Shown in pieces: positions 15,345 to 50,061 of a stretch of DNA of 64,000 nt. The translations under genes were made by a program, and so were the position numbers. Origin of the DNA: Artemia franciscana (taxonomy: Eukaryota > Arthropoda > Branchiopoda > Anostraca > Artemiidae); assembly GCF_032884065.1 (NCBI RefSeq), contig NC_088867.1:1488001-1552000 (forward strand), read 5' to 3'. Every line of letters begins with the position of its first letter. Positions within the stretch are counted from its first letter, which is position 1. Under the pieces are notes generated by a model. That model was not told the origin of the DNA and did no database searches. It saw nothing but the letters and a program-made list of their open reading frames with translations.

Positions 15345-15425
15345 AAAACCAATCTTGTTTGACTGCACTATATATTTCGCAACTTAAGCATTATAAAAGA
15401 GATTTTTTAGTTAATTCAAATCAGT
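15345..15425 (+). promoter_or_regulatory. Gene A core promoter: TATA box and initiator
   Basis: TATAAAAG at 15392-15399 lies 31 bp before the A of a TCAGT initiator (15421-15425), a canonical arthropod spacing. The upstream block 'cttgtttgactgcact' plus 'atatttcgcaactt' is shared almost unchanged with gene B (TATA at 34878). The start codon follows about 30 bases after the predicted transcription start. Confidence 0.75.
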
Positions 15426-15452
15426 AGTCGATAAGCTGCTTATCAGTTGAAG

Positions 15453-15501
15453 ATGAAAACTGTTTGCTTGACCCTTATACTGTTGGTTGCTGCTGCTTCA
15501 G
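15453..15501 (+). CDS. Gene A exon 1 (signal peptide)
   Basis: Starts at the first ATG after the initiator and encodes 16 complete codons of a hydrophobic leader plus one base of codon 17. The donor is 'tcag|gtgaga'. Exon 1 of gene B is the same length (49 nt) with the same phase and AAAS end. Confidence 0.85.
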
Positions 15502-49900: not shown

Positions 49901-50021
49901 TAATGTTGACTTTACAAATGTAGGTCCGAATGGACGCCCTGCTTTGAGTTTTCAACAGCCAGGACTGTCTATCAACCTAAGAGAAAAAGAAAAAAGCGCA
50001 AACAAAGAAGCAAAAAAATAA
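34938..50021 (+). CDS. Gene B: secreted Gly/Gln-rich pentapeptide-repeat protein (spliced, 266 aa)
   Basis: Join of 34938-34986, 38468-38638, 44470-44550 and 49522-50021; 801 nt with GT-AG introns, all phase 1. Signal peptide MKANCLALIFLVAAASA, then a second basic pair (SRRIIVRRQT) and an acidic/Lys-rich region (DKKTEGAEELEERFVN). A Gln/Thr-rich exon 3 follows, then a repeat domain with four 20-residue units (residues 136-215). Unlike gene A it ends in a 50-residue non-repeat tail (PGSGVGGANVDFTNVGPNG ... ) finishing with a Lys/Glu-rich EKEKSANKEAKK. I recognise no named family. Same promoter and exon plan as gene A. Introns contain R elements and a LINE. Poly(A) signal at 50056. Confidence 0.8.
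35169..35240 (+). pseudogene. Relic third copy of the family's exon 1
   Basis: 'caaatcagtagtc', 'aagcttcttacgagttgaaa' and 'atgaaagcta' follow the order and spacing of the initiator, 5' leader and start codon of gene B. The ATG at 35212 opens a frame of only nine codons before TAG, no TATA box is kept and no donor is present. It lies 225 bp into intron 1 of gene B. Confidence 0.6.
35280..36110 (-). mobile_element. LINE 3' end plus 3' UTR, inverted relative to 31920-32790
   Basis: Minus-strand copy of the same unit: LINE C-terminal codons (RRRSVRSCVGL at about 36100-36065), 'cttggcactaatattgaaag', the A-rich 3' UTR, and the tRNA-like end with 'gggttaaagccctgagtcac' near 35440. Located in intron 1 of gene B. 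Confidence 0.65.
36111..36919. other. Intron 1 of gene B, simple-sequence-rich part
   Basis: Short local repeats of 'tttttagtgtt' and 'acgctagtgtttacttttaatc' at 36340-36600; no gene seen. Confidence 0.45.
36920..37230 (+). mobile_element. R-family element, old fragment
   Basis: Diverged landmarks 'cgggagaaatacatcctcga', 'gtatcaagctcctatctgca' and 'gcgtgtttacttgttta' in family order. Confidence 0.5.
37231..38467. other. Intron 1 of gene B, last part
   Basis: AT-rich; a 'ttaattaaa' run lies at 38118-38150. No element recognised. Confidence 0.45.
38468..38638 (+). CDS. Gene B exon 2
   Basis: Acceptor 'cattttttag' ends at 38467; donor 'aaca|gtgagt'. Encodes AASRRIIVRRQTENVKPAVA and then DKK-containing charged sequence ending EERFVN. 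Four codons shorter than gene A exon 2, mainly in the middle. Confidence 0.85.
38639..39166. other. Intron 2 of gene B, first part
   Basis: T-rich; short frames here are low complexity. Confidence 0.45.
39167..40911 (-). mobile_element. R-family element, full length
   Basis: Minus orientation. Foldback palindrome at 39185-39440 (arms about 105 bp, loop about 45 bp), a second one at 39885-39965, hairpin 'cagttcgttaccacgaactg' at 40888-40907. Arms share copy-specific changes (see findings). Confidence 0.9.
40912..41521. other. Spacer within intron 2 of gene B
   Basis: Begins with a short R-like scrap ('gcgtatatgagggggtt' at 40973); otherwise nothing recognised. Confidence 0.45.
41522..42356 (+). 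mobile_element. R-family element, 3'-truncated
   Basis: Hairpin at 41526-41545 and the first half of the family, stopping abruptly after 'gaaaagggcgcagga' where other copies continue with 'ttttctagcattac'. Confidence 0.85.
42357..42691. other. Unique sequence between R copies
   Basis: A/C-rich 335-bp segment with no relative in the window. Confidence 0.45.
42692..44352 (+). mobile_element. R-family element, full length with internal deletion
   Basis: Hairpin 'cagttcgtggtaaggaactg' at 42696-42715. The module after 'gtaaagagcgaggtat' (43802) jumps directly to 'attttttactaataaaaacg', so about 70 bp is missing. The terminal palindrome at 44085-44330 has nearly perfect arms. Ends 117 bp before exon 3 of gene B. 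Confidence 0.9.
44470..44550 (+). CDS. Gene B exon 3
   Basis: Acceptor 'gtctttttcag' ends at 44469; donor 'cctc|gtgagt'. Encodes NGVRRKVVQTQTQLTSTSIQ then QGGVSAP. Twelve bases longer than gene A exon 3, with the same phase. Confidence 0.8.
44551..45429. other. Intron 3 of gene B, first part
   Basis: No element recognised before the LINE. Confidence 0.4.
45459..45563 (+). pseudogene. LINE ORF1 N-terminus, zinc-finger-like
   Basis: A 34-codon frame with spacing C-x2-C-x3-C-x6-C-x2-C-x6-C-x-H-H, like the PHD/RING-type finger found at the front of some LINE ORF1 proteins. A TAG at 45561 ends it; related polar sequence continues in other frames to about 45990. Confidence 0.5.
46010..46230 (+). 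mobile_element. R-family foldback fragment inside the LINE
   Basis: 'actttagcgtaaagagcggg', 'catatacaaagtaatttctg' and 'gtcgctccttactttcagtt' are the right arm of an R palindrome; the left arm is lost. Confidence 0.75.
46345..46590 (+). pseudogene. LINE endonuclease fragment
   Basis: Encodes AIAVFYSPPNQNIESK, FLVGDANDLK (GDFN-like motif with F replaced) and TRRNTSLDVVLTN, the distal motifs of an APE-type endonuclease; truncated at the front. Confidence 0.6.
47215..48670 (+). pseudogene. LINE reverse transcriptase
   Basis: RT motifs in order: IPKIWKQGFITPLKK, VRPITLTPIFSKFYEG, SIDFQKAFDFVNHNIL (first catalytic Asp present), SMPQGTLLGPLLF, a one-base frame change near 47903, KFVDDLTIVE near 47945 (catalytic Asp pair intact), VNPSKSMIM, ILLGVTISSNLKW and FVRPHLEYACPVWHPG. 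A TAG at 48455 splits the C-terminus, which continues to 48670. Loss of the frame, not of the catalytic residues, inactivates it. Confidence 0.8.
49111..49521. other. End of intron 3 of gene B
   Basis: AT-rich sequence leading to the exon 4 acceptor; nothing else recognised. Confidence 0.5.
49522..50021 (+). CDS. Gene B exon 4 (repeat domain and C-terminus)
   Basis: Acceptor 'ctttattccag' ends at 49521. After VAGGVGGFNSALTQPSFGQ the frame enters four 60-bp units (49626-49685, -49745, -49805, -49865), each four pentads of the form [20 protein letters not shown]; the last unit is degenerate (GIGHT, GLGHS, SLSQP). The tail is non-repetitive and Lys-rich at its end. Each full unit is 35% Gly and 20% Gln. 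Confidence 0.85.
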
Positions 50022-50055
50022 ATATAATTTAGAACCAATAATGACATTTTTTCTC

Positions 50056-50061
50056 AATAAA
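50056..50061 (+). terminator. Gene B poly(A) signal AATAAA
   Basis: AATAAA 35 bases after the stop codon. Confidence 0.75.

Follow-up and report, generated by a model that had tools for sequence, protein, structure and literature searches.

A gene cluster in the brine shrimp Artemia probably encodes secreted, glycine-rich proteins that are silk-like in composition

What do A and B, two neighbouring predicted genes of a brine shrimp, encode, and do they stand alone? We studied them in a 64-kb stretch of DNA (the window; C5:1,488,001-1,552,000) from the chromosome-scale contig C5, which is 60.9 Mb long. (Positions on the contig are prefixed with C5; positions in the window have no prefix.) A first-pass annotation had described the two genes as a tandem pair of secreted pentapeptide-repeat genes of an unrecognised family that looks lineage-specific, with a structural, adhesive, or coat-protein role. 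We propose that A and B probably belong to a cluster of genes for secreted, low-complexity structural matrix proteins that are rich in glycine and silk-like in composition. We also weigh several materials that they might form.

Two four-exon genes with a common plan

Analysis of the reading frames confirmed A and B as two predicted four-exon genes, head to tail on the + strand, at the place that the first-pass annotation had given. Gene A spans 15453-30293 on the + strand, with a predicted product of 304 amino acids. Its core promoter (15392-15425) has TATAAAAG at 15392 and TCAGT at 15421, with a T-to-A spacing of 31 bp. Exon 1 (15453-15501, 49 nt) was located by its frame and by the scan described below, and encodes a 16-residue signal peptide. 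The joined frame continues through exon 2 (26201-26383, 183 nt), which encodes a segment running from IIVRRQT to EERFVN; exon 3 (27608-27676, 69 nt), which starts with NGV; and exon 4 (29680-30293, 614 nt), which is also marked by its periodicity and encodes a GQT-type repeat and then VGSGLIGK before the stop. An AATAAA that we read in the sequence at 30339-30344 is the likely polyadenylation signal.

Gene B is laid out in the same way. It spans 34938-50021 on the + strand, with a predicted product of 266 amino acids. Its core promoter (34878-34910) has TATAAAAG at 34878 and TCAGT at 34906, with a T-to-A spacing of 30 bp. Exon 1 (34938-34986, 49 nt, from frame and scan) encodes the signal peptide MKANCLALIFLVAAAS. 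In the joined frame, exon 2 (38468-38638, 171 nt) encodes another IIVRRQT-to-EERFVN segment, exon 3 (44470-44550, 81 nt) begins with NGVRRKVVQTQ, and exon 4 (49522-50021, 500 nt) has a GQT-type repeat followed by a conserved C-terminal domain (the domain match is at 49863-50015). The likely polyadenylation signal, again an AATAAA read in the sequence, is at 50056-50061. Of the outer limits that had been proposed for the pair, 15392 falls at the TATA box of A, and 50061 is the last base of the AATAAA after B.

All six predicted introns are GT-AG and of phase 1; the shortest is 1.2 kb and the longest 10.7 kb. In both genes, the joined frame runs from ATG to stop without interruption. The two first exons are identical at 40 of 49 nucleotides, and in an alignment of the 120 bp upstream of the ATG, 101 columns match, 17 differ, and 4 have gaps. 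RRQT is present in both genes, both third exons open with NGV, and the repeat exon of each is of the GQTG(L/F) type. The features that the first-pass annotation had listed as common to A and B (the core promoter, which here is TATA/TCAGT, the 49-nt signal-peptide exon, the four-exon plan, phase-1 introns throughout, the RRQT motif, and the NGV start of exon 3) were all recovered.

We also asked how often such gene starts arise by chance. A scan for signal exons (an ATG, a hydrophobic stretch, and a phase-1 donor, with criteria that were fixed after A and B had been seen) matched the first exons of A and B on the + strand of the window and nothing else; on the - strand it gave one match, which lacks a TATA box. 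In 30 Markov-1 simulations, the mean number of matches was 0.5, or 0.03 (maximum 1) if a TATA box was required. The hydrophobic signal exons of A and B agree with the earlier suggestion that the products would be secreted. The region from an upstream AATCTTGTTTGACT element through the start codon aligns closely among A, B, and a third gene, Z (see below). A 27-base promoter pattern (with N at 4 positions) fit without mismatches at A, B, and Z only; with 2-3 mismatches, it fit at six other places, versus 18 for a reversed control.

Repeats without a recognised family

The repeats of exon 4, which had been noted in both genes, show periodicity beyond that of 1000 shuffles. In A, the scores for periods 5 and 15 (0.35), 36 (0.31), and 10 (0.25) are above the highest score from 1000 shuffles (0.22), but those for periods 20, 25, and 30 (0.21) are not. 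The higher-order repeat unit of A is 108 nt. In B, the eight best periods are all multiples of 5, with scores of 0.34-0.49 versus a shuffle maximum of 0.24 (1000 shuffles), and the higher-order unit is 60 nt (20 residues).

The five-residue period is thus real, and it is shared with the pentapeptide repeat proteins (PF00805), whose repeat motif is A(D/N)LXX. But "pentapeptide repeat" is a misnomer as the name of the family: four proteins (A, B, and two other copies from the cluster described below) did not match PF00805 at E values of up to 10. More broadly, nothing was over the curated cut-offs of Pfam for these four proteins or of NCBIfam for A and B, which agrees with the unrecognised family of the first-pass annotation. 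Below the cut-offs, Pfam gave Lamprin for A (E = 0.44) and B (E = 0.068); for another copy (N), it gave KRTAP and also PARP (E = 1.7e-5, 25.2 bits versus a cut-off of 100), the latter on an EPEAEPEA tail. In NCBIfam, HetL was rejected as a match for B (14.4 bits versus a cut-off of 260).

Comparisons of the whole proteins to the PDB returned matches on the repeats. Both A (E = 0.0012) and B (E = 2e-5) matched 7wkk_I, which we take to be a nucleoporin with FG repeats, and B also matched a DotG chain (E = 0.09). We take these matches to reflect low complexity, and low-complexity sequence like the repeat of B does not by itself fix a function.

A cluster of related final exons

"Tandem pair" is too small a description: A and B account for just two of the 22 final exons of this family that we found within 625 kb of C5 (C5:1,460,002-2,085,019, both strands). 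This count is a lower bound, because only part of the candidates from the genome protein searches was scored (130 of 1689 with A as the query and 144 of 3049 with B), although some near-identical copies (below) may be uncollapsed haplotypes. The relatives of A and B that we found are on C5; elsewhere in the genome, the matches listed were weak, of low complexity, and rich in stops. In the 10-kb flanks of the cluster, we found exons 1 and 2 of one gene (Y, below) on the left and no clear family motif on the right. Seventeen of the 22 final exons carry the C-terminal domain described below, and the other five end in ...IGK as A does, at C5 positions 1460002, 1487735, 1517676 (which is A itself), 1685816, and 1726408.

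Two genes to the left of the window have 5' exons like those of A and B. Gene Z, which ends 74 bases left of the window, has exons of 49, 237, 81, and 230 nt with all introns in phase 1, which matches the four-exon plan and the phases of A and B. Its predicted product of 198 amino acids includes RRQT and EERFVN, and exon 3 opens with SGV, not NGV. Gene Y has a 49-nt exon 1 encoding MKTICFTILVLVAVAS. Its exon 2 (C5:1456751-1456876) encodes VVVRRQ, and its repeat exon ends at C5:1460259; we looked for its exon 3 and did not find it. The 16-residue hydrophobic start is thus present in A, B, Z, and Y, which are the four of the 22 copies with a located signal exon. For four other cluster members (N, T, O, and P), scans of stretches upstream of N and of T, and of the interval from O to P, gave no 5' exons. 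One more copy of exon 2 is at C5:1576915. The located 5' exons are those of the first four genes, and a plan common to the whole cluster would be an extrapolation from these.

Some copies are very similar to each other. Among 12 loci that we compared, the three at C5:1764451, 2002437, and 2022639 share 99.7-99.8% identity across 3.3 kb, the pair 1940884/1949038 is 97.6% identical, the pair 1824551/1923133 is 96.5% identical, and two copies with stops (see below) are 96% identical. Some of these may be assembly duplicates (uncollapsed haplotypes) or recent duplicates. The 20 intact final exons form 16 groups at 95% protein identity. Tandem and inverted duplications probably built up the cluster, and the repeats of each gene would have expanded on their own.

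Glycine-rich composition

The type of repeat varies across the cluster. A, B, Y, and Z, together with the copies nearest to them, have GQTGL or GQTGF repeats; other copies have NRPGF, GYGNSG, or GGQGGYEQ repeats. The longest final exon encodes 548 residues, of which 43% are glycine. We measured the glycine fraction in an 80-residue window (for shorter exons, along their full length), excluding the two stop-bearing copies. It is 0.29 for A and 0.35 for B, and it reaches 0.25 or more in 15 of the 20 intact copies; in the other five, it is 0.19-0.24. The mature parts of A and B lack cysteine, and the 18 other final exons have a single cysteine among them. A and B also lack tyrosine, while copies with other repeats are 4-11% tyrosine.

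This composition resembles that of silk-like structural proteins (SLSPs). According to PMC4944945, the definition of an SLSP includes a signal peptide and a glycine content of 25% or more over 80 residues, and silk-like proteins occur in many extracellular materials. SLSPs share with A and B the signal peptide, a region that is at least one quarter glycine, and repetitiveness; kinship is not required. As 15 of the 20 intact copies reach the glycine part of this definition, the structural type of composition that the first-pass annotation had suggested holds up. SLSPs are a class by composition and not a family by descent, whereas here 17 copies are united by a C-terminal domain.

A conserved C-terminal domain

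The domain is about 40 residues long. Using the domain from one copy as the query, we searched the whole genome (1.27 Gb) at E values of up to 10, and all 17 candidates were scored. All 17 matches lie within C5:1,537,863-2,085,019 and none are elsewhere in the genome. The consensus from 11 copies is xGYQPGSGxGGANVxFTNVGPNGRPALxYQAPGLSVxLRxK, with 12 invariant columns.

There is strong evidence that the C-terminal domain is under purifying selection, as would be expected from constraint at the level of the protein. Between the domains of B and its nearest relative (C), there are 20 synonymous and 2 nonsynonymous changes, and between those of D and N there are 19.5 and 2.5. The pooled pN/pS ratio is 0.27 (45 non-independent pairs from 10 of the 15 intact copies, many of them saturated at synonymous sites; the five copies excluded were four near-identical ones and C5:2072181, which diverges most). 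The start of exon 2 is less constrained, with a pN/pS of 0.51 (20 codons, four copies).

Two of the 17 copies have stops inside the domain (C5:1881332, or L035, and C5:1896471, or L037) and are likely to be pseudogenes of the cluster. The match at C5:1750668 also has stops, but we retained it because they are at and beyond its own end.

We did not find relatives of this domain in other collections. A profile of 11 copies gave nothing in the PDB at E values of up to 1, and the domain of B alone gave one match at E = 5.4. In a prokaryote collection, 65 candidate stretches yielded a single match of 15 residues, in a Sulfurovum MAG, which we put down to chance. Among viral contigs, 11 candidate stretches included no relative. 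The family may be specific to its lineage, as the first-pass annotation suggested, but these prokaryote and viral searches are a weak test of that. Five motifs were absent from the literature that we searched. The best reading of these sequence comparisons is that the family is new but of a known broad kind, the silk-like proteins, which are filed by composition.

Other features of the window

Are A and B the only host genes in these 64 kb, as the first-pass annotation had it? This is plausible from the 10 frames that we scanned out of the 94 listed frames of 80 or more amino acids: five matched PWWP, endonuclease, or reverse transcriptase, and the other five had no match. The PWWP frame was over the Pfam cut-off and the endonuclease frame was just under it. 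These two lie in a degraded LINE-like stretch at 4646-8901 (+ strand), where the PWWP frame (E = 5.5e-6) is upstream of the endonuclease and reverse-transcriptase frames. A PWWP domain beside a LINE seems unusual. A second degraded reverse-transcriptase element is in intron 3 of gene B (46319-48457, + strand), and its frame at 47217-47903 is the only one there that matched RVT_1.

Towards the right end of the window, Rfam gave three tRNA matches of 30-37 bits (58665-58745 and 60179-60259 on the - strand and 62529-62609 on the + strand), none of which was called by ARAGORN. They lie near poly-T and CCGGGAC minisatellites and are perhaps a tRNA-derived repeat. A minisatellite that can be read as a 17-residue peptide is found both at 56838-63181 and at C5:1941698-1942403, between two distant members of the cluster. 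Two related frames on the - strand (59152-59523 and 60597-60845) contain ...LDEDPPGQRESKHIK.ENDSDDDWVWD.DLDKVINAYQI... and are probably part of a repeat; the first of them had no match in Pfam.

What the proteins may be

To return to our proposal, A and B would be secreted structural matrix proteins. The precursor would enter the secretory pathway via its signal peptide, and a dibasic protease may cut after the RR that precedes a glutamine in the short N-terminal segment. The repeats would form a flexible, cohesive extracellular material, with the C-terminal domain controlling its assembly or anchoring. If we had to guess, the material would most likely be a protective coat, with the cyst shell as one example.

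Which material is a separate question. It is possible that the proteins belong to some other extracellular material, such as cuticle, the gut lining, cement, or the secretion of a limb gland. The composition and the signal peptides would fit any of these, and the many materials with silk-like proteins (PMC4944945) are in keeping with this. However, the Pfam families for cuticle or chitin-binding proteins, including Cuticle_1 (PF08140), were not matched by A, B, or the two other copies. In the genome, no match to PF08140 was over the cut-off either, but this argues little against cuticle, as the search ignores introns and 14 control genomes were also blank.

A comparably tentative suggestion is that Artemia has its chorion locus here. 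The genes would be active in the shell glands of oviparous females, and their products would lie beside SGEG1 and SGEG2 in the cyst shell. The genome fits Artemia franciscana. As described in PMC3108945, SGEG1, 2a, and 2b are secreted matrix peptides of the shell gland that have no known homologues and without which the shell does not form properly; a putative dibasic cleavage site (RYKR) is present in SGEG2. Insect chorion genes are also clustered: the silkmoth chorion cluster has 127 genes in 872 kb (PMC4639761). The cyst shell is attractive because the shell proteins of Artemia are, like A and B, secreted, novel, and possibly cut at dibasic sites, and because insect chorion genes, which are numerous, related, and code for secreted proteins of a coat, likewise sit together in a single large cluster. 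However, the two printed epitope peptides of SGEG2 were absent from all six frames of the 55 sequences that we examined. (A search of the genome with the two epitopes joined returned nothing, but this was an uninformative query.) Also, among the papers listed for Artemia shells, for shell glands, and for glycine-rich proteins, no title or abstract opening mentioned such a cluster. Insect chorion is joined through dityrosine. A and B differ from it in that they lack cysteine in their mature parts, and their lack of tyrosine makes dityrosine joining as in insect chorion impossible for these two proteins, although the copies with other repeats do have tyrosine. The fuller version of this idea, that the 625-kb stretch is the Artemia chorion locus and holds the main gene set of the cyst shell, with an undescribed assembly domain and diverged silk-like repeats, is somewhat doubtful.

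We also considered that the genes might encode glycine-rich antimicrobial peptides or their precursors. A and B are cationic (the computed pI of the mature protein is 10.1 for A and 10.2 for B), rich in glycine, and apparently secreted, as is AfRgly1, a glycine-rich antimicrobial protein from A. franciscana (PMC12387859). But AfRgly1 is not among the copies that we read: neither its two printed peptides nor shorter cores from these occur in the 55 sequences examined. It also has three cysteines, and its mean hydropathy is 0.001 (same source), whereas A and B have no cysteine in their mature parts and are more hydrophilic (the computed means for five frames from the cluster are -0.24 to -0.86). 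Long repeats and a conserved domain would suit a structural role better, and we consider an antimicrobial role to be improbable.

Finally, introns that measure 1.2 to 10.7 kb and contain remains of transposons, along with the two domain copies interrupted by stops, might suggest non-coding or decayed gene-like repeats, but this seems very improbable given the strong purifying selection on the C-terminal domain and the identical splice phases and conserved promoters in three genes.

Implications

The protein make-up of brine-shrimp materials, and above all of the cyst shell, is poorly known, with three peptides named (PMC3108945). If A and B do belong to a cluster for structural matrix proteins, then its roughly 20 apparently intact final exons, of which 15 have the shared domain, are a list of candidates that can be tested, and the cluster would be of greater interest if its genes prove to be expressed in the shell gland. 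The C-terminal domain provides a marker to seek in related crustaceans. And the cluster would offer a natural series of silk-like repeat designs, built on one C-terminal domain.
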